From Propionibacteriales bacterium (lineage in GTDB: Bacteria; Actinomycetota; Actinomycetes; Propionibacteriales; Nocardioidaceae), in assembly GCA_009377795.1 (NCBI GenBank), contig WHTJ01000042.1:1-38135 (forward strand): a DNA stretch of 38,135 nucleotides, given 5' to 3'. Below, piece by piece: positions 25,945-38,135 of this stretch (its first letter is position 1; each line of letters opens with the position of its first letter). A program made the translations under genes and the position numbers. Below the pieces are notes generated by a model, which made no database searches, had not been told where the DNA came from, and saw only the letters and a list, made by a program, of their open reading frames with translations.

Positions 25945-28295
25945 TGCAGCAGCGACTGGCCAGCCTGGCGATGCTGTCCCTCTTCGCGTGGCTCGCGTCC
26001 ATGGGTGCGGCGTTCGCCCTGCTCCCCCTGTTCGAGTACCACGCGTACCTGATCGCAGCGATCGTGTTCACCCTCCCGGCGCTGGTCGTGGGCATCGCGC
26101 TGCGGATGGCGCGGGTACCGGTCCTGCTGGTGCCACTCGGCCAGGTCGCCGCGCTCATCTTGTGGATCGCGTGGATCTACACCGTCGGGACCGGCTGGTT
26201 CGAGTTCGTTCCCTCCGACGGCGGGTTGTCCAACGTCCGGTTCCTGATCGAGATCGGCTTGGACGAGGCCAACGAGTACGCCGCGCCGGCGCCCGACACG
26301 CCCGGGCTCACGCTGATCACCGCGTTGGGCGTCACCGGCTGCCATCTCGTGGTCGACCTGATCGCGGTCGGCATGCGAAGCGCGCCACTCACCGGGATGC
26401 CGCTGCTCGCGCTCTACACCGCACCCGCCGCGTTGGCGCCGGAGGGCGTACCGGTCCTGGCGTTCATCCCCGGCGCGACGGGCTTCATCGCGCTGCTGGC
26501 GTACGACGAGCGCGAGCGCCTGGTGACCTGGGGCCGTCAGGTGTCGACGATCGCCGCCGTACGCTCGGTGGATCAACAGCGGCGACTCAACGTCAGCGCA
26601 CTGAACATCTCCGCACAGCGAGTCGGGCTGGCCGCGATCGCGGTCGCGGCGGTCGTGCCCTTCTTCGTCCCTGTCTTCCCCGAGAACCTCTTCGAGCGTG
26701 GTCCCAAGGGGGCCGGCGGCAACGGCCAGGTACGAGTGTCCAACCCGATCGTCGACCTCCGGCGGGACCTCACCGAGCGCTCCGAGGAGACCGCGATGCT
26801 GATCCGTACCACCGACGGACGGCCGCAGTACTTCCGGCTGGCCGCTCTCGACGAGTTCGACGGCAAGGCATGGAAGTTCTCCGACCGCGACGTCAGTACA
26901 CAGAACGACCTCGTGGGGGCGCTGCCCATACCACCGGGCCTCGATCTGCAGGTCGCGTCGACGGAGAAGACCTACGGCGTGCGGATCTCGGACAACTTCC
27001 AGACCGACTGGCTTCCGTCGCCGTACGCTCCGCAGAGCGTGCAGGCTCCCGGTGAGTGGCGCTACGACCCGGACACCTTCGACATCGTCAAGGCCGACGA
27101 GGATCAGTCCGCGGCCGGGATCGGGTACCGGTTGCGCGTCGTCGAGGCCGATCCCACCTTCGATCATCTGATGGGCGCCGGCGGCAACCCGACCGACATC
27201 AGCGCCGGCTACACCGCCGTCCCGAACTCCGTCCCGGACGAGGTCAGCGAGATCGCCCAGAACATCACCAGCTCCGCCACCAGCCGGTTCGAGCGTGCCG
27301 TGCAGCTGCAGCAGTGGTTCCGCCAGGACGGCGGCTTCCGGTACACCCTCGCCCCGCCCCCGGGGCACAGCGGGGACGACATCATGGCGTTCCTCGACGG
27401 CAAGGAGGGCTACTGCGAGCAGTTCGCGGCCGCGATGGCCGTGATGGCGCGGTTGCTCGACATCCCGTCGCGGGTCGCGGTCGGATTCCTCAGCGCCGAG
27501 CTCGGCGATCGCCCGAACGAATGGCGGTACGCCTTCTCCGACCTGCACGCCTGGCCGGAGCTGTACTTCGAAGGCACGGGCTGGGTGCGTTTCGAGCCCA
27601 CACCGGCCGGCGGGACGGACGCCATCCCCACGGTGGCGCCGAGCTACACCACAGGTACGACCGGTGAGGACGGCCAGATACCGCAGAACTTGCCGAATCA
27701 GAACGCCGCCCCGCCGGAAACGTCACCCGACGCGCTGTCCCAGGACCGGCTGGACCCCCAGCTCGGATCCGGAGGCGGTTCCGACGGCGACGGGTCCTCG
27801 CGGTGGTGGCTGCCGGTGCTGGTGGTGGCGGCCGGGATCGCCCTGCTGCCGGCCATCGTTCGGATGCTCGTACGCCGGACCAGATGGACACGCGCGCAGG
27901 GGGATGTGGCGCTTGCCGAGGCAGTCTGGGCAGAGGTTCGGGACACGATCCGCGATCTTCGCCACGAGTGGCCGTGGGACACCCCGCGCCGTACGGCCCG
28001 CGCGGTGTCCCCCCTGATCGCGCACGACGAGGCGGCGCTCGGCGCGCTCTGGAGGATCGCCATCGGTGTCGAACGCTCCCGGTACGCCCGCGTCCCGCAG
28101 GACGGCGCCCGCCTGCGCCCCGACCTCGAGACCGTGGTCGGGGCGCTGCGACACCACGAATCCCGCGCCGATCGCATCCGCGCGGTACTGCTCCCCCGCT
28201 CGCTACGGCCGCGCTACTGGCAGGAGCACCGGCTCTCGAAGCTCAGAACCCCGACTCACGACGGCGACGCCAGCGTTCTTCCATCCGCTCCATGA
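25944..28295 (+). CDS. TgpA-type membrane transglutaminase-like protein
   Basis: The 783-residue protein has about six N-terminal membrane segments, a large extracytoplasmic region, a transglutaminase core, and a final membrane segment near residue 630 followed by a cytoplasmic DUF4129-like tail. The catalytic pattern is C491 in GYCEQFAAAMAV and H535 in SDLHAWPEL. The third position falls in WVRFEPTP, with Glu551 where many relatives have Asp. TgpA-like proteins are essential in some bacteria and are linked to the envelope. Start ATG 25944 overlaps the DUF58 stop. Its 3' end overlaps the DUF3040 gene, on the other strand, by 53 bp. Confidence 0.93.
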   Translation: MQQRLASLAMLSLFAWLASMGAAFALLPLFEYHAYLIAAIVFTLPALVVGIALRMARVPVLLVPLGQVAALILWIAWIYTVGTGWFEFVPSDGGLSNVRFLIEIGLDEANEYAAPAPDTPGLTLITALGVTGCHLVVDLIAVGMRSAPLTGMPLLALYTAPAALAPEGVPVLAFIPGATGFIALLAYDERERLVTWGRQVSTIAAVRSVDQQRRLNVSALNISAQRVGLAAIAVAAVVPFFVPVFPENLFERGPKGAGGNGQVRVSNPIVDLRRDLTERSEETAMLIRTTDGRPQYFRLAALDEFDGKAWKFSDRDVSTQNDLVGALPIPPGLDLQVASTEKTYGVRISDNFQTDWLPSPYAPQSVQAPGEWRYDPDTFDIVKADEDQSAAGIGYRLRVVEADPTFDHLMGAGGNPTDISAGYTAVPNSVPDEVSEIAQNITSSATSRFERAVQLQQWFRQDGGFRYTLAPPPGHSGDDIMAFLDGKEGYCEQFAAAMAVMARLLDIPSRVAVGFLSAELGDRPNEWRYAFSDLHAWPELYFEGTGWVRFEPTPAGGTDAIPTVAPSYTTGTTGEDGQIPQNLPNQNAAPPETSPDALSQDRLDPQLGSGGGSDGDGSSRWWLPVLVVAAGIALLPAIVRMLVRRTRWTRAQGDVALAEAVWAEVRDTIRDLRHEWPWDTPRRTARAVSPLIAHDEAALGALWRIAIGVERSRYARVPQDGARLRPDLETVVGALRHHESRADRIRAVLLPRSLRPRYWQEHRLSKLRTPTHDGDASVLPSAP

Positions 28296-28662
28296 ACGAC
28301 CCCGAAGCGGAGGGGTGCTGACGTTTGCTGGCCGAGGCCGACTTGGCCTTGGGCTGGTCCGAGGAGCCGACCAGGTAGAGCGGCTCGGGTTGGGTGGATC
28401 TCCGCCAGGCGGTGAGGCCGATGTACGCGCCGCCCAGCATCAGCACGAAACCGAGCACGCTGACCACAGTCTGCGGCAGGATGACGCCGGTCATCAGCAA
28501 CCCGATCCCGATAACGAAGACACCGCCCGCACTCAAGGCGACCCGGCGGTGGTGCCCCTGGGACTTGCTCCCCCGAAGAGCCGACGCGAATTTGGGGTCG
28601 TCGGCGGTCAACGCCTGCTCCAATTGATCGAGCATCCGCTGCTCTTCCTCGGAGAGTGGCAC
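28243..28662 (-). CDS. DUF3040 small membrane protein
   Basis: The 139-residue protein starts VPLSEEEQRMLDQLEQAL, the hallmark of actinobacterial DUF3040. Two membrane segments follow (about 50-90), then a basic tail rich in Lys, Ser and Arg. Its function is unknown. GTG 28662 is chosen because GGAGG lies six bases upstream and because homologues start there. Its last 53 bp run antisense to the transglutaminase gene end. Confidence 0.9.
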   Translation of the reverse strand: MPLSEEEQRMLDQLEQALTADDPKFASALRGSKSQGHHRRVALSAGGVFVIGIGLLMTGVILPQTVVSVLGFVLMLGGAYIGLTAWRRSTQPEPLYLVGSSDQPKAKSASASKRQHPSASGSFMERMEERWRRRRESGF

Positions 28663-28962: not shown

Positions 28963-30480
28963 CTAGCGGGCCGCGGGCGAAGCGGACGTCTGCTCGAGGT
29001 CGGCTGCGGGCTGGAGCGGCCGTACGGCGTACTCCTCCGGCCGGAACCTCCGCGTCTGCAACCGGAACCTCCAGGTCGACCGGGGCCACAGCGTGCTGTT
29101 GCGTCCGTTGCCGTCGAGGTACCAGCTGTGGCAGCCGCCGGCGGTCCACACCGTGCCCTTCATCTTGCGCTGGACCTCCTCGTTGTACGCCTCTTCCACC
29201 TCGGGGCGTACGTCGATCGTCCGCCAGCCGTTGCGGTCCATGGCGGCGATGCACTGCAGGACGTAGTCGATCTGAGCCTCGATCATGAAGACGACCGACG
29301 TGTGGCCCAGGCCGGTGTTCGGACCGAGCAGGAAGAAGCCGTTCGGGAACCCGGACACCGTGGAGCCCAGATAGGCCCGCGGGCTGCCCTGCCACACGTC
29401 GTCCAGAGTGCGTCCACCCACTCCCCGGACCCGGCTGCCGATCGGCATGTCGGTGACATGGAAACCCGTGGCGAAGACGATCGCGTCGATCTCGCGCTCG
29501 GTGCCGTCGGCCATCACCAGGGACTTCTTCCGGAGCTCCTTCACCCCGCCGGTCAGGACCTCGGTGTTGGGCTTGGTGAGTGCCGGGTAGTAGTCGTTGG
29601 CCAACATGATGCGCTTGCACCCGATGGTGAAGTTCGGCATCAGCTTCGACCGCAGCTCGGGATCGCGGACCTGTCGTTCGATCTGACGGCGGGCCAGGAA
29701 CTGGATCGGCTTCAGGACGTTCGTGTTGTGCGCGAGCCCGAGGACCAGCCACTCGCGACCCCAGTAGATCTGCGTGCGGTTGAGCCGCTGTGCCGGCGGC
29801 AGCGTGCGGTACAGCCAGCGCTCCAGCTTGGTGATCCGGCGGTTCGTGTGCGGCAGAACCCAGGCCGGGGTGCGCTGGCAGAGGTAGAGCCGCTCGACCC
29901 GCGGCTGGATCCGCGGCACGATCTGGATGGCCGAGGCGCCGGTGCCGACCACGGCGACCCGCTTGCCGGTGAGGTCGAAGTCGTTGTTCCACGCGGCGGA
30001 GTGGAACGCCTCTCCCTCGAACTCGGACATGCGCTCGATGTCGGGCAGCCTGGGATCGGCGAGCGCGCCGACGGCGGATACGCAGATCTGCGCCGTCAGC
30101 TCGCCGCCGGTGCTCTTCAGGCACCAGAGCTGTTCGCGCTCGTCCCAGCGCGCCGACTGGACGTCCTCGCCGTACCGGATGTGCGGGAGTACGTCGTACT
30201 CCTTCGCGACCCGGCGCAGGTAGTCCCAGATCTCCGGCTGTGCCGAGTACGTCTCGCTCCAGTCCGGGTTGACGGCGAACGAGAACGAGTAGAGGTGGGA
30301 GGGTACGTCGCACCGGCAGCCCGGGTACGTGTTGTCCCGCCAGGTGCCGCCGAGGTCGTCGGCGCGTTCGAGGATGACGAAGTCGTCGATGCCGGCCTGC
30401 TTGAGCCGGATCGCGATGCCCAGCCCGGCGAAGCCGCTGCCGATGATGGCGATGCGGGTGTCAGGGGTGGCAAGGGTCAT
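28963..30480 (-). CDS. Baeyer-Villiger-type flavin monooxygenase
   Basis: The 505-residue protein is a class B flavoprotein monooxygenase, using FAD, NADPH and O2 to insert oxygen next to a ketone or to oxidise a heteroatom. It has an FAD Rossmann motif GSGFAGLG (14-21), the type I Baeyer-Villiger fingerprint FEGEAFHSAAW (154-164, pattern FxGxxxHxxxW), and a NADPH motif GTGASA (179-184). The TYPGCRCDVPSHLYSFSF block is typical of the cyclic-ketone and phenylacetone monooxygenase group. The substrate cannot be read from sequence. ATG 30480 follows AAGGAGA. A palindrome sits in its upstream region. It interrupts an otherwise conserved neighbourhood. Confidence 0.92.
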   Translation of the reverse strand: MTLATPDTRIAIIGSGFAGLGIAIRLKQAGIDDFVILERADDLGGTWRDNTYPGCRCDVPSHLYSFSFAVNPDWSETYSAQPEIWDYLRRVAKEYDVLPHIRYGEDVQSARWDEREQLWCLKSTGGELTAQICVSAVGALADPRLPDIERMSEFEGEAFHSAAWNNDFDLTGKRVAVVGTGASAIQIVPRIQPRVERLYLCQRTPAWVLPHTNRRITKLERWLYRTLPPAQRLNRTQIYWGREWLVLGLAHNTNVLKPIQFLARRQIERQVRDPELRSKLMPNFTIGCKRIMLANDYYPALTKPNTEVLTGGVKELRKKSLVMADGTEREIDAIVFATGFHVTDMPIGSRVRGVGGRTLDDVWQGSPRAYLGSTVSGFPNGFFLLGPNTGLGHTSVVFMIEAQIDYVLQCIAAMDRNGWRTIDVRPEVEEAYNEEVQRKMKGTVWTAGGCHSWYLDGNGRNSTLWPRSTWRFRLQTRRFRPEEYAVRPLQPAADLEQTSASPAAR

Positions 30481-30526
30481 GCCGGGTCTCCTTCGGGTGG
30501 GCGCCCGCGGTAGCCGCCACCATGCT

Positions 30527-30544
30527 TCCTACTGACGCGTAGGA
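30527..30544. promoter_or_regulatory. Perfect 6-6-6 palindrome upstream of the monooxygenase
   Basis: tcctac-tgacgc-gtagga forms an 18-bp inverted repeat 47 bp before the monooxygenase ATG. On the minus strand TTGCAA lies just upstream. Size and symmetry resemble a TetR-family operator. The nearby TetR gene is a candidate regulator, but its own promoter site has a different sequence. Confidence 0.5.
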
Positions 30545-30586
30545 TTGCAAGCGTGTGCTTCGCCACAGGCCCGGACGGTATGCCGG

Positions 30587-31339
30587 TCAGCGTCTGACGG
30601 CGAGCGCGTGCAGCTGGGTGGCGATCGCCCGGAACTCGGGCCGGTCGGCCACGTCGGCCTCCAGCTTGAGCAGCTCCTCCGTCGCACCCGGCTCGGAGTC
30701 CACCAGCGCACTCGGGATGAGGTCCACGAACACCCGGGCGCCGTGTACCGCGAGCAGCTCGAACCCCGCGTCGTCGAGCAGGCTCGTCACCTCGTCCTCC
30801 GTGAAGCGCCGCGGCACCGGGTCGACGCTGCCCCATCGGCCGTCCGGATCGACCAGCAGCCGGCGCGCGTCGGCGAGATGCCCGGCCAGCGCCTTCGCGA
30901 GCGCCGCGGCGTACCGCCCGGTGACCAGCAGGCTGAGGGTGCCGCCCGGGCGCAGGGTCTCCGCCGCTGACCGCAGCGCCTCCCGCGGGCTGTCGACCAC
31001 CTCCAGCACGTCGTGGCACAGCACCACGTCGGCGACCGCCGAACCGGCCACCTCCACCAGATCGGTGGAATCGCCCTGCAGGCCCTGGATCCGGTCGCTC
31101 ACGCCGGCCTCGTCCGCACGCCGCCCCAGAAGGGCGAGCGCATCCGGATTCGGGTCGACCACGATCACCCGATGGCCGAGCTCGGCGGTACGGACCGCGA
31201 AACCTCCGGTACCCCCACCGAGGTCGAGCACGTCCAGCGGACGGGATTCGGTCAGCGACGCACGGCACGCCTCGAGCCGGCCGGCGAGCGCGTCCCAAAC
31301 GACGGCACTGCGCGCGATACTGCGACGGTGGTCAGCCAC
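30587..31339 (-). CDS. Class I SAM-dependent methyltransferase
   Basis: The 250-residue protein has the SAM-binding motif VLDLGGGTGG (37-46), a VDPNPDAL acidic loop, and the ADVVLCHDVLEVV and LRPGGTLSLLV blocks of the class I Rossmann fold. Its C-terminal half has a family-specific FTEDEVTSLLDDAGFELL segment. The substrate is unknown. GTG 31339 is preferred because GAGGAGG lies five bases before it; the frame remains open to an upstream start at 31414. The type occurs near DUF3040 and HEPN genes in actinomycetes, and here it is separated from the former by the monooxygenase. Confidence 0.88.
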   Translation of the reverse strand: MADHRRSIARSAVVWDALAGRLEACRASLTESRPLDVLDLGGGTGGFAVRTAELGHRVIVVDPNPDALALLGRRADEAGVSDRIQGLQGDSTDLVEVAGSAVADVVLCHDVLEVVDSPREALRSAAETLRPGGTLSLLVTGRYAAALAKALAGHLADARRLLVDPDGRWGSVDPVPRRFTEDEVTSLLDDAGFELLAVHGARVFVDLIPSALVDSEPGATEELLKLEADVADRPEFRAIATQLHALAVRR

Positions 31340-31455
31340 ACCGGCCTCCTCGGAAATCAGGGCGGTTGCTGCCCACCCTAGTGAGGGCCGCGCTCCGCCA
31401 TGCAGCTCATCCATCCCGGAAGGACGCTGACCGCCTGGCCCATGGTGGTCCCTGA

Positions 31456-32049
31456 TCAGCGCGTGCCCGCGAGCTGCAGCGCGAGCTGCTCGTGATGGCG
31501 AACCACGGCCGACGCCGGGCTCGGACCGTCGGGTCGATACCAGACGGAGACATGCATGCCTATGGCGAGGATGGCGTACGACGCCATCCGGTAGTCGGGG
31601 ACGTGGAACCGGCCGCGCCTGGCACCCCGGCGCAGGATGCGCCGTAGCGACCGTTCATAGTCGTCGCGCATCGCCGTCACCTGCCGGTAGCGCTCTCTGC
31701 CGAGACGCGTCATCTGCTGGTTGATGACGCGTGCCTCCTCGCGGTGGTCGATGTGAAAGCGGATGTGCTGGCGGACGAAGGCGCGCAACTGTTCGACCGG
31801 GTCGGGTGAGCTGGCCGCAGCCTCCTGGCCACGCGTGATCAGCGTCAACATCGCCTCCTCACAAATGGCCCACAGGATCTCCTCCTTGGACGGGTAATGG
31901 TTATAGAGGCTCGCAGGCTGGTTGCCGACGGCGGCGGCGATCTGCCTCATCGATGCAGCCTCGTAGCCCACATCGGAGAACAACGACAGCGCGGCCTTCT
32001 TGATTGTCGCCGCCGCGTCACGACGCGCGCCGAGGTCGCGGGTCCCCAT
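31456..32049 (-). CDS. TetR/AcrR family transcriptional repressor
   Basis: The 197-residue protein has an N-terminal helix-turn-helix (about 32-52, including MRQIAAAVGNQPASLYNHYPSKEE). Its C-terminal ligand domain ends WYRPDGPSP, as in KstR2-like regulators of lipid or sterol-related catabolism. ATG 32049 is used; GTG 32055, two codons upstream, lies closer to the GGAGG run and is possible. It is divergent from the liv operon, with a palindrome between them, so local and autoregulation is the simplest model. The ligand is unknown. Confidence 0.9.
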   Translation of the reverse strand: MGTRDLGARRDAAATIKKAALSLFSDVGYEAASMRQIAAAVGNQPASLYNHYPSKEEILWAICEEAMLTLITRGQEAAASSPDPVEQLRAFVRQHIRFHIDHREEARVINQQMTRLGRERYRQVTAMRDDYERSLRRILRRGARRGRFHVPDYRMASYAILAIGMHVSVWYRPDGPSPASAVVRHHEQLALQLAGTR

Positions 32050-32314
32050 AGTCACCGTCCCTCCCTCCCTGCCGATCCTGTGCCCAGCGCACGCCGATCG
32101 GGCATCTCCGAGCTCACCCTGGCCATCGGGGTGCATCACACCGAGGTTATCGCCATCGATGACAGCCAGGTGGCCGGCAGATACCTCCCCGAACGTCGCA
32201 GGAAGGACACCGGGGGTCAACGGTTCGAAGAACAGCTCTTCCAACATTTTTCCAACATCTCAGGCATTCCTAAGTCACCGTTACCTCAACCGTATCGCGT
32301 GACGCTGGCCCGGC

Positions 32315-32363
32315 TAACGATCGTTCGTAAATCCTTGACGCCGGAGAGTGATACGCGCATGAT
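32315..32363 (+). promoter_or_regulatory. Promoter of the liv operon with adjacent TetR-type palindrome
   Basis: TTGACG (32335-32340), a 17-bp spacer and CATGAT (32358-32363) form a promoter for the transporter genes. Directly upstream, taacgatcgttcgtaa (32315-32330) is a 16-bp imperfect palindrome with a perfect 10-bp core (32316-32325). Its position in the divergent gap suits an operator for the TetR protein. The other part of the 370-bp gap (32050-32314) shows nothing recognisable. Confidence 0.6.
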
Positions 32364-32419
32364 GGATGGCGCTTCCAGACGAGCCCACGCTGCCGGGGGG
32401 AAACCGGAGGAGTGTAGGG

Positions 32420-33757
32420 ATGAACGTCTTTCCTCGTGCCGGGCGCGCCACAGTGCTGGCGATCGCCGCCGCTTTCTTTCTCGTGACCGCCGCGTGCCAG
32501 CCACCCGAAGGCTCCGATGTCCCCGAGGACGTCGCCGAGGGGGAGGACGGCACTGCGGATGAGGGTTCCGGAGACGGCGCGTGTGAGATCGCCGGCATCG
32601 ACAGCATCCAGATCGGTGGCCTCGGCGCGTTGAGCGGGGCCCACGCGGACTACGGCGCGCAGATGGAGATGGGCGCGGAGATGGCCGCCGACGAGATCAA
32701 CGAGCAAGGCGGCATGCTTGGTTGCGAGGTCGAGATCCGCTTCATGGACAGCGAGCTGGATCCCGAGGTGGCGATCGGCAACGCTCGGAACCTCGTGGGC
32801 GAGTGGGGTGCCGAATTCCTCGTGGGCGTCGATTCCAGCGGTGTCGCCCTCGCGTTGGCGCCGGTCATGGACGAGCTCGACCGCGTGCTCGTCGTTACCC
32901 ACGCCGCAACGGAAAAGCTCAACGAAGAGGAGATCTACGCCAACGACCACCGCAACGTCTTCAGAATGAGCGTTCCGGTGTACCAGGATGCAGTCGTGGC
33001 CGCGCTGATCGTCGCGGAGATGCCTGAAATCACCCGCATCGCCAATATCGGCGCCGACTACGAGTACGGGCGCACAGCCTGGGCGATGTTCCAGGAGACG
33101 TTGTCCCAGTACCGTGACGACGTCGAGTTCGTCGCGGAGGCGTGGGCGCCTTTCCTCACCTCCGACTTCTCACCCCACGTATCCAGCGTCATGGCCGAGG
33201 AGCCGGACATGGTGTTCTCCACGCCATGGGCAGGGGAAGCGGTCGCGTTGATTCGGCAGGCGCAGCAATCGGGTGCGTTCCAGGAGCTCGAGATGTGGTG
33301 GCAGGCCATGGGCGCCTCCGTCGACGTGCTCGAAGCAGTGACCCCGGATGTCCAGGCGGACGCCTTCGAGGGCAAGTTATGGGCAACCGGACGCTACATC
33401 TTCAACTGGCCCGAGACGGACACCAATCGCGAGTGGGTGGAAGCATTCCAGGAGCGCTACGACCGGCTGCCCAACTACAGCGCCCAAACCACGTACACGG
33501 CGGTCAATGCGCTGCATGACGCCGTCGAGGCCGCCGGCAGCGTCGATCCCGCGGACGTCGGCGCGGAGCTCGAGGGGATGATCATCGACGCACCCGCCGG
33601 CGAGTTCACCTTGCGCGCCGAGGATCATCAGGCCGTCTACCCGGTTCCCGCGGGCAGGGTCGTGTACGACGACGACTGGGGTATCGCCTGCGTGTGCGCC
33701 GACCTGCAGGTCTTCGACACGGAGGAGTATTACCGCGACCCGCCGTTCGAGGAATGA
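32420..33757 (+). CDS. Branched-chain amino acid-type ABC substrate-binding lipoprotein
   Basis: The 445-residue protein has a lipoprotein signal: basic start, hydrophobic core, and a lipobox-like TAAC around Cys26. A very acidic linker follows (about 30-55), then a periplasmic-binding-protein type 1 fold beginning IQIGGLGALSGAHADYGAQ, with GMLGCEVEIRFMDSELDP in the first lobe. It should be tethered outside the membrane and deliver a ligand to the LivHM channel. The ligand cannot be inferred; this family carries amino acids, amides, urea and aromatic acids. ATG 32420 has an AGGAGT site 11-13 bases upstream. Extra cysteines occur in GDGACE, GCEVE and ACVCAD. Confidence 0.92.
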   Translation: MNVFPRAGRATVLAIAAAFFLVTAACQPPEGSDVPEDVAEGEDGTADEGSGDGACEIAGIDSIQIGGLGALSGAHADYGAQMEMGAEMAADEINEQGGMLGCEVEIRFMDSELDPEVAIGNARNLVGEWGAEFLVGVDSSGVALALAPVMDELDRVLVVTHAATEKLNEEEIYANDHRNVFRMSVPVYQDAVVAALIVAEMPEITRIANIGADYEYGRTAWAMFQETLSQYRDDVEFVAEAWAPFLTSDFSPHVSSVMAEEPDMVFSTPWAGEAVALIRQAQQSGAFQELEMWWQAMGASVDVLEAVTPDVQADAFEGKLWATGRYIFNWPETDTNREWVEAFQERYDRLPNYSAQTTYTAVNALHDAVEAAGSVDPADVGAELEGMIIDAPAGEFTLRAEDHQAVYPVPAGRVVYDDDWGIACVCADLQVFDTEEYYRDPPFEE

Positions 33758-33787
33758 GCATCGCAGGCCGGCGTGGAGAGCTCTCGC

Positions 33788-34657
33788 GTGAGCGTTGAGA
33801 ATCTCCTCTATCAGGGTCTCATCGGGCTGACCAATGGGATGTATCTGTGGCTGGTCGCGGCCGGCCTGACCATCGCCTTCGGCGTACTGAAGATCCTGAA
33901 CTTCGCGCACGGAAGCCTCTACATGGTCGGCGCGTACCTCGGGTTCTCCATGTACGGGGAGTTCGGGCTGGGTTTCTGGTCGTCGCTGGCGCTTGCGACC
34001 CTGACGGTCGGGTTGCTCGGCCTGGTACTCGAGCGAACGCTCTTCCGCCCCCTCTACAAGCTCGACATCACCTATGGACTGATCCTCACGTTCGGGCTCG
34101 CTCTCATCTTCTCCGACCTGGTACGGATCCTGTGGGGAGGCGTCTTCCTGATACCGCCGACACCCGCGGCTCTGGTCGGCAGTTTCGAGATCCTGGGCCG
34201 CGCGTTCTCCTACTACAACGCCTTCGTCATCGCCGCCGGCCTGCTGGTCGGCGCCGGGCTGTGGTTCCTGCTCGACCACACATGGTGGGGACGGACTGTG
34301 CGCGCCACCGCCTCCGATCGTGAGATGTCAGGTGTACTCGGCATCAACGCGGGCTGGATCTATGCCTCCGTCTTCGCGCTTGCAGCCGCCGTCGCCAGCC
34401 TCGCCGGTGCGTTGAGCATCCCGGTGCGCGTCGTTACTCCCGGGCTCGGTACGACGATCATCATCCAGGCCTTCATCATCACGGTCATCGGAGGGCTCGG
34501 CAGCCTGCGCGGCGCGTTCCTCGGTGCACTGATTGTCGGGCTCGCCAATGCCTACGGCGTCCTGCTGTTCCCGAACATCGAGTTGTTCCTCATCTACGGG
34601 ATCATGGCCCTGGTCCTGCTGGTGAAGCCGGAGGGTCTGCTGGGGGAGCGCCAATGA
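33788..34657 (+). CDS. livH: Liv-type ABC permease (LivH-like)
   Basis: The 289-residue membrane protein has about eight hydrophobic segments and the LivH pattern: GLTIAFGVLKILNFAHGSLYMVGAY in the first third and a conserved IITVIGGLGSLRGAFLGALIVG loop near the end, which couples to the ATPases. GTG 33788 follows a GGAG element; GTG 33773 in frame is an alternative. The gene starts about 30 bp after the binding protein and overlaps livM by ATGA. Confidence 0.92.
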   Translation: MSVENLLYQGLIGLTNGMYLWLVAAGLTIAFGVLKILNFAHGSLYMVGAYLGFSMYGEFGLGFWSSLALATLTVGLLGLVLERTLFRPLYKLDITYGLILTFGLALIFSDLVRILWGGVFLIPPTPAALVGSFEILGRAFSYYNAFVIAAGLLVGAGLWFLLDHTWWGRTVRATASDREMSGVLGINAGWIYASVFALAAAVASLAGALSIPVRVVTPGLGTTIIIQAFIITVIGGLGSLRGAFLGALIVGLANAYGVLLFPNIELFLIYGIMALVLLVKPEGLLGERQ

Positions 34658-35721
34658 CGGACCGCCTTGCCGCGCCCCGCCCTCCGGGTCTGCGGGTGAA
34701 ACGGATTTACCGGCCGGCGCTCGCCGGCCTTCTGGTCCTGCTTGCCCTGATCCCTCTGATCGCCTCGCCGTACCACACCTGGATCGCGGCGAGCATGCTG
34801 CTGCTTGCGCTCTTCGCCACCGGATTCAACGTGTTGTTCGGCTACACCGGGTTGCTGTCCTTCGGGCACGCGGCCTTCTTCGGCGTCGGCGCCTACGTCA
34901 GCGCGCTCGTCCTGCTGGCGTGGCCGTCGCTTCCCGTCGCCATGGTCGCCGGCACCCTGGCGGCAGGTGCCGTCGGTGTGGTCATCGGCTACCTGTCCCT
35001 GCGGCACACCGACATCTACTTCGCGATGCTGACGCTGGCCTTCGGGATGATGATCCACTCGATCATCTGGCGGTGGCGCGATGTGACGGGCGGTGACGAC
35101 GGCTTGCCCGGTGTTCCACGCGGCGTGCTCGGTGTGCCCGGTGCCGGCCTGGACCTCGCCGACCTGGACCGTTTCTACTACGTCGTCCTCGTGGTGACCG
35201 TGGTCGCGGTCTACGGTCTGTGGCGGGTGGTGCGATCGCCGCTCGGCCTCACCTTCCAAGGCGTGCGCGACAACGAGACGCGTGTCGCGTACGCCGGCAT
35301 CCATGTCCGCCGGGTCCGCCTCGCCAGCTTCGTCCTGTCGGCGCTCACGGCGGGTCTGGCCGGTTCACTGTGGGCGCCGCTGAACACCAACGCCGGCCCG
35401 GGCGTCGCGCACTGGACGTTCTCCGCGGAGCCGGTGCTGGCTTCGCTCCTGGGCGGCGCCCACGTTTTCGGCGGACCGGCGGTCGGAGCATTCCTCCTGT
35501 TCTTCGCCAAGCAGATCGTCGTCCAGTACACCCAGTACTGGCTGCTGGTACTCGGGATGATCGTCGTCGTACTCGTGCTGGCGTTCCGCGGCGGCGTGGC
35601 GAGCGCGGCCCTGACACTGCTGTCACGCGTCACCGCGGACGATGACACCAGGCCCTCGGACGACCAGCGGAAAGCCGCCGATGCCCTCGGAACCACGTCG
35701 AGAGGGTCCGGCGATGGGTGA
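34654..35721 (+). CDS. livM: Liv-type ABC permease (LivM-like)
   Basis: The 355-residue protein carries the LivM features NVLFGYTGLLSFGHAAFFGVGAY, YFAMLTLAFGMMIHSIIWRWRDVTGGDDGLPG and the cytoplasmic VRDNETRVAYAGIHVRRVRL coupling loop, with about ten membrane segments. The C-terminal 35 residues form a polar extension (DDDTRPSDDQRKAADALG). ATG 34654 overlaps the livH stop by four bases, and livG starts inside its last codons. Confidence 0.93.
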   Translation: MTDRLAAPRPPGLRVKRIYRPALAGLLVLLALIPLIASPYHTWIAASMLLLALFATGFNVLFGYTGLLSFGHAAFFGVGAYVSALVLLAWPSLPVAMVAGTLAAGAVGVVIGYLSLRHTDIYFAMLTLAFGMMIHSIIWRWRDVTGGDDGLPGVPRGVLGVPGAGLDLADLDRFYYVVLVVTVVAVYGLWRVVRSPLGLTFQGVRDNETRVAYAGIHVRRVRLASFVLSALTAGLAGSLWAPLNTNAGPGVAHWTFSAEPVLASLLGGAHVFGGPAVGAFLLFFAKQIVVQYTQYWLLVLGMIVVVLVLAFRGGVASAALTLLSRVTADDDTRPSDDQRKAADALGTTSRGSGDG

Positions 35722-36472
35722 GTTCCTGACTGCCCGTGGCATCGGGAAGCGCTACGGAGATTTCTGGGCCGTACGCGGCGTGGATCTCGAACTTCCCGAG
35801 GGTCGGCTGACTTCCGTGATCGGGCCGAACGGGGCCGGCAAGACCACGCTGATAAACCTTCTCAGTGGCCTGGTCAGGGCAGATGAGGGCCGGATCACCT
35901 TCCGAGGCGAGGACATAACCCGCCTGCCGATCCACAAACGCGTACGACGGGGCATCAGCCGTTCTTTTCAGATCACGAGCGTGTTCCCCCAGCTGACGGT
36001 GCGGGACAACATCTTGCTCCCGGTGCTCGCCCGGCGCGGGGAGACAGCAGCCCCGTTCCGCCGGATCGGCGCGGGTCTCGACGGTGTCCGCGAGGCGCAG
36101 ACCGTGCTCGAGCGGGTTGGGCTGAGCGAGCAGCAAGACCTGCTTGCAGGAGTGCTGCCGCATGGCGACCAGCGGCTGCTGGAGATCGCGATGGCCCTCG
36201 CCCCCGAGCCGTCGCTGTGCTTCCTCGACGAACCCTGCACGGGTATGACGCCCGGGGAAAGCCAGCAGATCCTGCGGCTCGTGCGCCGGCTCGGCGCCGG
36301 GCAGCAGACGACGTTCGTGGTGGTCGAGCACGACATGGACGTCGTGTTCTCGATATCGGACTGGATCATCGTCATGAACCGCGGTGAGGTCCTGGTCGCC
36401 GGGCCGCCCGATGAGATCCGCAACGACGCCGCCGTGCGTGAGGTCTATCTCGGCGAGGAGGTGCAGGAGTAG
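35714..36472 (+). CDS. livG: Liv-type ABC ATPase (LivG-like)
   Basis: The 252-residue ATPase energises the LivHM pore. It has Walker A GPNGAGKTT (37-45), an ABC signature written LPHGDQ (148-153; a common LivG variant of LSGGQ) and Walker B LCFLDEP (168-174). The H-loop is VVVEHDMD. The C-terminal GEVLVAGPPDEIRNDAAVREVYLGE is characteristic of LivG. ATG 35714 overlaps livM by 8 bp, and its TAG shares one base with the livF GTG. Confidence 0.95.
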   Translation: MGEFLTARGIGKRYGDFWAVRGVDLELPEGRLTSVIGPNGAGKTTLINLLSGLVRADEGRITFRGEDITRLPIHKRVRRGISRSFQITSVFPQLTVRDNILLPVLARRGETAAPFRRIGAGLDGVREAQTVLERVGLSEQQDLLAGVLPHGDQRLLEIAMALAPEPSLCFLDEPCTGMTPGESQQILRLVRRLGAGQQTTFVVVEHDMDVVFSISDWIIVMNRGEVLVAGPPDEIRNDAAVREVYLGEEVQE

Positions 36473-37170
36473 TGCTGACCCTCGAGGACGTCGAGAGTGC
36501 CTACGGGCGGAGTCTTGTGCTCCGGGGAGTCAGCCTGTCCGTGGAGGCCGGCGAGGTGGTGTGCCTGCTCGGACGCAACGGCGCCGGCAAAACCACGACC
36601 CTCCGCTCCATCGTGGGACTGGTGCGGCCACGTTCCGGACACATCACCTTCGACGGAACCGAGCTGGTCGGGCGAAGCCCTCATCGGATAGCCCGGCTCG
36701 GCCTGAGTTACGTTCCGGACGATCGGCGCATCTTCGCCGAGCTGACCGTGGAGGAGAACCTCCGGCTCGCGCGCCGTACTGTCAACCGGCCGGGCGACTG
36801 GGACCTCGAGCGCGTGTACCACTTGTTCCCGGTCCTCGAGCAGTATCGGCGGCGGGGCGGCGCCGAGCTGAGCGGCGGGGAGCAGAAGATGCTGGCCACC
36901 GGGCGTGCTCTGATCCAGAATCCTCGCCTCCTGCTCCTCGATGAGGCGTCCGAGGGCCTCGCGCCGAAGATCGTGCAGCAGTTCGTCCAAGCGGTGCGGG
37001 AGATCAGCGCCACGGGAATCGCCGTCCTGCTCGCGGACCAGAACCTGAAGTTTGCTCGCCGCGTCGCCGGCCGCGGTTATGTGATGGGCAAGGGCACGAT
37101 CGAGCACGCCGACGACATGTACGCGATCTGGGCCAACGAGGAGGTAGTCCGGCGCTACCTGTCGGTCTGA
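36472..37170 (+). CDS. livF: Liv-type ABC ATPase (LivF-like)
   Basis: The second ATPase of the importer has 232 residues, with Walker A GRNGAGKTT (34-42), LSGGEQ (133-138) and Walker B LLLLDEA (153-159). The VPDDRRIFAELTVEENL block is typical of LivF. The usual H-loop histidine is replaced: ADQNLKFA is present, as in most LivF proteins. GTG 36472 shares a base with the livG stop (TAGTG). It is the last gene of the cassette and converges with the HEPN gene over 36 bp. Confidence 0.95.
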   Translation: MLTLEDVESAYGRSLVLRGVSLSVEAGEVVCLLGRNGAGKTTTLRSIVGLVRPRSGHITFDGTELVGRSPHRIARLGLSYVPDDRRIFAELTVEENLRLARRTVNRPGDWDLERVYHLFPVLEQYRRRGGAELSGGEQKMLATGRALIQNPRLLLLDEASEGLAPKIVQQFVQAVREISATGIAVLLADQNLKFARRVAGRGYVMGKGTIEHADDMYAIWANEEVVRRYLSV

Positions 37171-37206: not shown

Positions 37207-37638
37207 TTAGCTCGCCTTGGCGGCCGGACCGGGCAACGGCTGCTGGGACGGTACGCCGAGCAGCTCCTCGACCAGGGTCAGGAATCGCTCCGCATCGCGT
37301 AACAGGTCGTCCGCCTCGCGCGCCGAAACCGCGTTTCGCAACCCGGCCTCGGCGGCCGCTCTTTTACCTGCACCTGCGGCAAAGAACGCCGCCCACTCCC
37401 CCATCTCCGGCACGACCTGAGCCAGGAGCGCCCACGCGTTGCGCTGACTGCGCCGGACCGACGGGCGGCTCCGGACCGCGAGCAATGCGGCGGTGGACCA
37501 CAGCGCCGCGACATGCGCCGACGCGTAACGGCGGGCCGGATCGGTCGTGGCCGCCGCTTCGCCGAGCGCCGACCGCGCACGAGTGAGACAGCTACGCGCC
37601 GCCTCCGACAGCGGAGCGCCCGGGGCCTGGAATCCCAT
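37207..37638 (-). CDS. SAV_6107-like HEPN domain protein
   Basis: The 143-residue all-helical protein resembles the actinobacterial SAV_6107 HEPN family. It contains RYASAH (R37 to H42), matching the R-x4-6-H signature of HEPN ribonucleases, within DPARRYASAHVAALWSTAALL. HEPN proteins often act in RNA cleavage or nucleotide binding; this family has no defined role. ATG 37638 follows GGAGG by seven bases. It normally sits close to the methyltransferase and DUF3040 genes, which here are 6 kb away. Confidence 0.82.
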   Translation of the reverse strand: MGFQAPGAPLSEAARSCLTRARSALGEAAATTDPARRYASAHVAALWSTAALLAVRSRPSVRRSQRNAWALLAQVVPEMGEWAAFFAAGAGKRAAAEAGLRNAVSAREADDLLRDAERFLTLVEELLGVPSQQPLPGPAAKAS

Positions 37639-38028
37639 CGCACAACCTCCAGCACAGCGACATCCTCGGCCGGCGGCGGGCGACCCCCTCCCGACGGGCG
37701 ACGTGGCGGGACGGGGGCCGGGCCGGCTTCTGGCGGTCTCCCTCACCCACAAGATCGAGGGGACTCGCCCCAGGCGCTGCCCCTCGCCCTAGCCGGCCCG
37801 GCAGCGCCCCCGGCGAAGGTGGGGTCGAGTTCACCTTCGCCGGGAACGGTCCCGTCTTCCCGGCGCGGGCCGCGAACACCGCCACCGAGGTGATCGAACA
37901 ACTGTTCGAACACGTCCACTATAACCACACCACCCTCCCGTCCGTCAACCTCCACGAGGGAAGTCCGTAGGGAGCGCCCTCCGACGTCGTCGCGGGCTCG
38001 CGGGCGCCCCTCCGCCGGCAGGCTCTAG
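37639..38028. other. Gene-poor stretch between the HEPN gene and the IS end
   Basis: About 390 bp with no complete gene recognised. The left part should hold the HEPN promoter, though no clear -10/-35 pair is seen. The right part contains the possible gene remnant listed separately. It is GC-rich, with several short Pro/Arg/Gly-coding frames that look like composition effects. Confidence 0.5.
37818..37970 (+). pseudogene. Possible 3' remnant of an unknown gene
   Basis: A plus-strand frame encodes about 50 residues containing EFTFAGNGPVF and TATEVIEQLFEH, ending at TAG 37968-37970. Third positions are strongly G/C, as in real genes here, but there is no good start codon or ribosome site and the upstream part of the frame is low complexity. 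A fragment left by rearrangement beside the insertion sequence is possible. The protein is not recognised, and a chance frame cannot be excluded. Confidence 0.25.
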
Positions 38029-38090
38029 GAGACTGCTGAAGAAAGGCGCGTCTGCGGGGCCGGCAGCTGTCGGTCTGAAATTCTTGGCTT
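38029..38090 (+). mobile_element. Probable left end of an IS1182-type insertion sequence
   Basis: The stretch beginning gagactgctgaagaaagg precedes the transposase start by about 60 bp, as expected for a terminal inverted repeat. The other end and the target duplication lie outside the window, so the boundary is approximate. Confidence 0.45.
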
Positions 38091-38135
38091 ATGCAGGGTC
38101 GTTCGCAAGATCAGCGTGAGCTTCTCGACGTGGAC
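38091..38135 (+). CDS. IS1182-family transposase, first 15 codons only
   Basis: The frame begins MQGRSQDQRELLDVD and runs off the window. MQGR followed by an RELLD motif is the usual N-terminus of actinobacterial IS1182-family DDE transposases. No ribosome site is obvious, as is common for transposases. With only 15 residues visible, the call rests on that N-terminal match. Confidence 0.65.
   Translation, partial: MQGRSQDQRELLDVD

Follow-up and report, generated by a model that had tools for sequence, protein, structure and literature searches.

Separate arrivals of an importer and a monooxygenase probably remodelled a LexA-boxed translesion-polymerase operon in a Propionibacteriales bacterium

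The window analysed here is a stretch of 38,135 nucleotides from a Propionibacteriales bacterium (WHTJ01000042.1 of assembly GCA_009377795.1), which is contig C7 of a draft genome (G000) of 4.58 Mb in 182 contigs with a completeness of 96.8%. Between native genes for DUF3040 and HEPN_SAV_6107, it carries a type I Baeyer-Villiger monooxygenase (BVMO), a methyltransferase, a TetR-family regulator and a five-gene importer of the liv type. We suggest that at least two independent events in an operon of translesion polymerases behind a LexA box built this segment, and the full explanation set out below, taken as one, is in our judgment probably correct. The ancestral operon would have run on one strand from a LexA box through DUF6504 (where present), HEPN, a dnaE2-like gene (where present), the methyltransferase and dinB to DUF3040. 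In the lineage of the window, the dinB of this slot would have been lost with a type I BVMO in its place, DUF6504 would have been lost as well, and a divergent unit of TetR and a substrate-binding protein (SBP) with livHMGF would have come to lie between the methyltransferase and HEPN.

The SBP and the LivHMGF-like complex are predicted to use ATP for the uptake of an organic carboxylic acid, probably an aryl or alkyl one, and TetR, bound to a palindrome at 32314-32327, may block its own promoter and that of the importer until the substrate's CoA thioester builds up. The insert would sever the SOS transcript, so that LexA would keep HEPN and the methyltransferase and BVMO would now lie downstream of TetR, while contigs C133 and C91, with a dinB and an imuA'-imuB-dnaE2 row, respectively, would retain SOS polymerase capacity.

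Gene order around the HEPN gene in related genomes

Sixty genomes of the family were searched and the HEPN gene was found in 34 of them. Of these loci, 32 (L062-L093) were fetched, those of G021 and G038 being left out, and the genes of the window together with dinB, dnaE and DUF6504 were mapped onto them by tblastn; HEPN is present in these loci by construction, since they were selected by it. With few exceptions, the relatives share the one-strand order DUF6504 (where present), HEPN, dnaE2-like gene (where present), methyltransferase, dinB and DUF3040, and where the stretch was long enough, TgpA and DUF58 genes on the opposite strand and MraW of the dcw cluster were found beyond DUF3040. Both the methyltransferase and DUF3040 were matched in 30 loci, and in 29 of these a dinB lies between them (in G046 as two fragments), the sole exception being G025 (L091), which has an L,D-transpeptidase in this slot. 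In the window, the slot is held by the BVMO gene (28963-30480, minus strand; PF00743), which is flanked by DUF3040 of the SCO2097 family (28243-28662, minus strand, start assumed; PF11239 with 94.6 bits, NF058603 above its cut-off, position conserved in relatives) and by a class I S-adenosylmethionine-dependent methyltransferase (30587-31342, minus strand; PF13489), a native operon member by synteny. The original prediction, made from the sequence alone, named these genes and their coordinates correctly, as gene calls and domain searches showed, and its statement that DUF3040, methyltransferase and HEPN genes are usually neighbours, often with DNA polymerase IV, agrees with the synteny of the relatives. 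It also had the BVMO in its proper position between DUF3040 and the methyltransferase, but understated the change, since the BVMO occupies the slot of a lost dinB.

The interval between the methyltransferase and HEPN measures 71-179 bp in 11 of the 32 loci, holds the dnaE2-like gene (~1,300 residues) in 20 and an endonuclease I gene in one (G043, L088). In the window, this interval contains TetR and the importer, and the stop of the LivF-like gene lies 36 bp from that of HEPN (37207-37644, minus strand; PF18726 with 113 bits), the native right flank, whose product is 71% identical to that of G009. The same two slots have thus been filled independently in G025 and G043. A BVMO or liv gene was found at this locus in none of the 32 relatives, and the synteny comparison that the original prediction had proposed recovered the gene order of the window in none of them. 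This result, together with the strong phylogenetic anomaly of the importer described below, upholds the claim of an insertion into a conserved neighbourhood. Eight loci (L066, L069, L078, L080, L081, L084, L087 and L092) have a spacing of 2.3-3.1 kb between DUF3040 and the methyltransferase instead of the usual ~1.4 kb; the extra DNA of L069 includes a sigma-70 family gene.

The closest reference for the window is G009, which is its sister in a tree of HEPN, methyltransferase and DUF3040 with a local support of 0.999 and has the locus without insert, in the order LexA box, DUF6504, HEPN, methyltransferase, dinB and DUF3040. As the MraW of the window is closer to that of G023 (72% identity) than to that of G009 (68%), this sister status holds for the HEPN locus. 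No match to dinB, dnaE or DUF6504 is left in the window by tblastn. Positions 37821-37948 are 75% identical to the DNA ahead of DUF6504 in G009, and from there to HEPN the window has ~177 bp, compared with ~490 bp, including DUF6504, in G009.

Substitutes for the missing genes were found elsewhere in the draft genome. Contig C133 carries a dinB of another class, which is 58-68% identical to copies of eight genomes, namely G025 and seven genomes lacking HEPN, and 38-44% identical to the dinBs of the slot; G025, like the window, has no dinB in the slot. Contig C91 carries three consecutive genes preceded by a perfect LexA box, namely a dnaE2, one encoding an IMS domain and one without a Pfam hit. 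We read them as imuA'-imuB-dnaE2, imuA' being assigned by its position. When two types of dnaE2 were distinguished by bit score, the locus dnaE2-like gene was missing in 12 of the 32 loci, and all 12 genomes hold the other type elsewhere, compared with only three (G022, G039 and G049) of the 20 genomes with a locus copy. The two types therefore largely exclude each other, and it seems that substitutes elsewhere in the genome free these operon slots. LexA-like sites with one or two mismatches lie at, or within ~35 bp of, the start of the second-class dinB in three loci (L119:5789-5804, L196:8674-8689 and L202:9419-9434), and no nearby site with at most one mismatch was found in the other five of the seven HEPN-less loci with this dinB class.

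Origins of the importer, TetR and the BVMO

The importer consists of a lipoprotein SBP (32420-33757; PF13458 with 209 bits), a LivH-like (33773-34657) and a LivM-like permease (34654-35721; both PF02653), and a LivG-like (35714-36472; PF00005 and PF12399) and a LivF-like ATPase (36472-37170; PF00005), all on the plus strand. A Peripla_BP SBP, two BPD_transp_2 permeases and two ABC ATPases in one run make up the composition of the HAAT/liv type. The likely start of the SBP is 32420, with GGAGG ahead and a lipobox, and those of TetR, HEPN and the methyltransferase are 32049, 37644 and 31342, respectively. The best-scoring match of the SBP reaches only 32% in the 60 family genomes, 39% in 395 other sampled genomes of the phylum, and 38-40% on plasmids in Thermus; no plasmid match to the importer with at least 60% identity was found in 72,556 records. 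In contrast, two metagenome-assembled genomes (MAGs) of Nitriliruptorales, an order of the class Nitriliruptoria, have the SBP with 75-79% identity (L124 and L125), and all importer genes with 70-85%: 81-84% to L125 and L124 for the LivH-like permease, 75-85% for the LivM-like permease, and 70% and 77%, both to L125, for the LivG- and LivF-like ATPases. The MraW of the window shares 55% identity with that of one MAG genome and 65-72% with those of five family genomes. This difference between the MAGs and the family strongly supports horizontal acquisition of the importer, either from a lineage resembling Nitriliruptorales or from a source shared with it.

Codon use was compared with 22 upstream genes of the window and 34 genes on three other contigs (56 in total, own gene calls). 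TetR and the liv genes have a G+C content at third codon positions (GC3) of 0.834-0.871, compared with 0.901 (sd 0.025) upstream and 0.900 (sd 0.042) on the other contigs, and their codon adaptation index lies in the bottom 2-11% of the reference genes. The relaxed codon use originally described for the whole cassette is accordingly present in TetR and liv, but the BVMO has a GC3 of 0.935 (84th percentile), and the native flanks DUF3040 (0.836) and HEPN (0.801) are as low as the insert, so codon use alone is not decisive. At the edges of the insert, neither a tRNA nor an Rfam match was found, and none of the 20 direct and 25 inverted repeats listed is a convincing flanking pair. The contig ends inside the start of an open reading frame (38092-38135), which presumably resembles the N-terminus of an insertion sequence-type transposase; by blastn, the other stretches of G000 that were compared contain no second copy of 37646-38135.

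The contexts of related importers suggest what is transported. A CoA ligase is near the importer in nine of 17 loci (L124, L169, L170, L173, L174, L175, L178, L181 and L183); the 17 are part of a larger set, from which other plasmid matches and weaker family loci were left out, and L179 and L181 have the SBP without liv genes. L173 (G094), whose SBP is 39% identical, has next to its importer an acyl-CoA synthetase with 67% identity to the one adjoining the importer of L124, which suggests a conserved pair of ligase and importer. The regulator (31456-32049, minus strand; TetR_C_24, PF17932 with 109 bits) is divergent from the importer. Across 40 other genomes, the best-scoring match to it is 39% identical, with a piece of 92 residues reaching 43%, and neither MAG genome has a match at E 1e-10; among solved structures, the regulator is similar to KstR2 (1.5e-12) and 3vpr (4.2e-30). 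The 370-bp gap between TetR and the SBP holds CTAACGATCGTTCG (32314-32327), the putative TetR operator, which matches the PaaR consensus CNAACGNNCGTTNG exactly. This is the only exact match in the window, where 0.02 are expected, and one arose in 7 of 20,000 resamplings of the gap. The window thereby has a TetR-family protein together with this operator in a divergent promoter region, as in the PaaR type, and a promoter-like site (32335-32363; 9/12) follows the putative operator, although the count of such sites is not above chance. We infer that TetR may be a relative of acyl-CoA-sensing repressors, and the exact PaaR-type operator and the CoA ligases near nine of the 17 importers point to uptake of an organic acid that would be activated with CoA.

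The BVMO is predicted to be active as a type I enzyme. It has two Rossmann motifs GxGx2[GA] at residues 14 and 179 and the BVMO1 fingerprint [GA]GxWx4[FY]P[GM]x3D at residue 44; the strict form of BVMO2, FxGx3Hx3W[PD], is absent, its core being found at residue 154 with N at the last position, and degenerate forms are said to occur (PMC9044951). Homologues with 48-58% identity lie at other places in 16 loci of 16 relatives; in 14 of these an SDR adjoins the homologue, and 10 of the loci contain the same TetR group. The SBP of the window has no match in these 16 loci, of which L113 alone has a 32% livG-type ATPase. A 6-6-6 inverted repeat upstream of the BVMO (30527-30544), a possible operator, has no copy with at most two mismatches in the 16 loci scanned. 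A relocated vertical family copy was considered, G009 having a 58% homologue, and is rejected on the tree and the missing SDR: with a G000 paralogue as root, the window BVMO falls outside a clade (support 0.977) that unites the G009 copy with 13 further proteins of the family, a Streptomyces protein is nearer to the main family clade than it is (0.928), and the partner SDR of G009 has no match in G000 at E 1e-30. No plasmid match to the BVMO with at least 60% identity was found in the 72,556 records. Its orphan status and core-like codon use suggest that the BVMO probably arrived earlier than the importer or separately from it, and other origins than that of the importer are supported for both TetR and the BVMO.

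The original prediction suggested that importer and BVMO, as one cassette, may form an uptake-and-oxidation module. On this reading, the two would have been acquired or selected jointly and would act on one compound, a ketone or acid precursor brought in by the importer and oxidised by the BVMO under TetR. The two do flank one native gene, and TetR, the methyltransferase and the BVMO share one strand, separated by 113 and 106 bp, and no terminator-like site was found between them, but the importer, TetR and the BVMO have different closest relatives, importer and BVMO differ in codon use, the SBP is absent from all 16 BVMO loci, the BVMO has its own inverted repeat, and near the relatives of the importer there are CoA ligases and not full BVMOs, two of the 17 loci holding a partial BVMO match of 28-29%. 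We therefore do not retain the single cassette and regard joint acquisition or selection as quite unlikely. Given the single strand and short gaps, importer and BVMO may possibly still work as a pair, for which no positive evidence was found. An ordinary importer of branched-chain amino acids or urea would agree with the five parts being all of HAAT/liv type and with a urea model being the best named match for each. This reading is unlikely in view of the CoA-ligase contexts and of the fact that, among the matches listed, no part reaches the NCBIfam equivalog cut-offs for urea (Urt) or E. coli Liv: the SBP misses by a wide margin (UrtA 109 versus 493, Liv-type 97 versus 477), and the closest other part is UrtE with 238 versus 286.

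An assembly or contamination artefact, in which a foreign importer was joined to native flanks, might be suspected from the fragmented genome of 182 contigs, the high similarity to MAGs of another order and the contig end shortly past the insert. We consider it very unlikely, because both flanks are native and keep the ancestral orientation around the insert, the contamination estimate is 1.04%, and 70-85% identity with a different GC3 means that the insert is not the MAGs' own DNA. To the idea that the relatives lost an ancestral order still seen in the window we give practically no credence; no supporting point was found for it, no relative shares the order, and the best SBP match in the family is distant.

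Several points weigh against the explanation by independent events. Of the structures similar to TetR, 3vpr is only presumably that of an acyl-CoA sensor. The PaaR-type box is one site, matching that of a regulator of unproven orthology, and occurs in none of the other loci compared. No CoA ligase was detected in eight of the 17 importer loci (L125, L176, L177, L179, L180, L182, L126 and L122; some on short contigs), none lies in or beside the insert of the window, and the MAG ligase has no close copy in G000, where the best-scoring of 22 acyl-CoA synthetase matches reaches 42%. The donor label is given by two short MAG contigs of 7.7 and 4.7 kb, possibly misbinned; the search for MraW found none in the second MAG genome, which may be incomplete, and the MAG importers have a higher GC3 (0.905-0.957) than that of the window, which implies that these MAGs are not the immediate donor. 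Replacement of dinB by the BVMO in one event is indistinguishable from a later arrival. Contig C7 stops 226 bp past the LexA box, with the sequence beyond unseen, and LexA control and co-transcription of the operon are predicted.

HEPN and the methyltransferase behind the LexA box

The insertion of the importer itself is ordinary lateral transfer, and the part worth following is the LexA-boxed operon with HEPN and the methyltransferase. In the window, a perfect LexA (SOS) box TCGAAC-N4-GTTCGA lies upstream of HEPN at 37894-37909 and is the only site with at most one mismatch. Such a box stands ahead of HEPN or DUF6504-HEPN in all 32 loci, perfect in 30 and with one mismatch in G046 and G043, against a background of seven sites with at most one mismatch away from the operon position in 652,765 bases scanned and one more adjoining it in G040. 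The box agrees with the LexA consensus of Streptomyces venezuelae; the Streptomyces motif is given as tCGAAC-N4-GNNCGa, and the LexA-controlled set of S. venezuelae includes dnaE2 and dinP (PMC9380542). As the operon sits behind this box, HEPN_SAV_6107 and the methyltransferase look like SOS genes.

As a control, the surroundings of dinB were fetched from 16 of 26 relatives lacking HEPN. Nine of these stretches are the same locus minus HEPN, with a perfect box ahead of DUF6504 in eight and the ninth contig ending too early, and seven have the other dinB class without other operon genes. L188 (G011) and L190 (G024) carry the LexA-boxed operon with neither HEPN nor a methyltransferase match; HEPN is thus an optional and not a universal member of the operon, and so is the methyltransferase.

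For the function of the two proteins, the clues are few. The string RYAxAH is present in at least 90% of 33 HEPN proteins checked for the Rx4-6H motif, but the table of a 2013 HEPN survey has "No" for SAV_6107 in the column that we take as catalytic motif, and the string may lie elsewhere in the fold, so no RNase activity is claimed here. The same table lists SAV_6107 without a gene association (PMC3710099). HEPN has no plasmid match with the G023 protein as query and no phage match with that of the window. The closest model of the methyltransferase, CmoM (NF008264), scores 92 bits, below the cut-off of 366. In PADLOC, HEPN, the BVMO and a DUF6504 protein have no match; for the methyltransferase, there are hits to parts of mad2 (2.7e-18) and to a type II methylase model, which were read as general methyltransferase similarity. 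DUF6504 found no mention in the literature searched, and SAV_6107 appears there in a single paper. Within the one family surveyed, we put forward, with confidence and doubt in balance, that HEPN_SAV_6107 and the CmoM-like methyltransferase may be unrecognised SOS genes in a modular LexA operon (DUF6504 – HEPN – DnaE2-like – methyltransferase – DinB), each gene of which could be lost singly, and perhaps act on RNA during lesion bypass by the polymerases; the window would have HEPN alone behind the box after loss of dinB and DUF6504 and the cut by the importer. Two families without known role would thereby gain a testable place in the DNA-damage response, given the near-invariant LexA boxes and the translesion polymerases beside them, and the locus would show a mutagenesis operon being dismantled one gene after another where the genome has substitutes at other places.

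Comparison with known systems

The nearest counterparts of the importer are those of L124 and L125 (SKPY01000121 and WHTC01000226), which have the same genes and order, where visible, as the window. L124 has an acyl-CoA synthetase gene in divergent orientation to the importer and, farther on, genes for a CoA-transferase and hydantoinase B, and in L125, a CMD-family gene lies downstream. Among characterised regulators, PaaR from Thermus thermophilus controls phenylacetate degradation genes; its operator CNAACGNNCGTTNG, as quoted in PMC6651687, is matched exactly at 32314-32327, whereas the consensus AACnAACGTTnGTT selected in that study itself is not matched by the window site. The MbdR/MbdB1-B5 system from Azoarcus sp. 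CIB likewise combines a TetR repressor responding to an acyl-CoA inducer with an operon for a putative aromatic-acid ABC importer. However, that operon contains a CoA ligase and its operator is ATAC-N10-GTAT (PMC4424350), whereas the window has no ligase and a PaaR-like palindrome. With type I BVMOs of the EthA/MymA type (PMC9044951), the enzyme of the window shares the BVMO1 fingerprint and both Rossmann motifs, a likeness by motifs alone; its BVMO2 ends with N instead of P/D, as in several relatives, and there is no adjoining SDR.

The operon of the relatives resembles the DnaE2B–PolY–ImuB-C putative mutasome of Actinobacteria, described with the propionibacterium Tessaracoccus lapidicaptus (PMC12926913), in having a dnaE2-like gene, a dinB-type gene and the small DUF6504 gene, which stand in one run in, for example, L064, L066 and L068. 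The match is in part, the dnaE2-like genes being only putatively DnaE2B, and DUF6504 may be a standalone ImuB-C. Compared with the Tessaracoccus mutasome, the relatives add HEPN_SAV_6107 and the methyltransferase, neither of which is mentioned in the main text of that report, and the window itself differs from both in having no dinB, DUF6504 or dnaE2-like gene at the locus.

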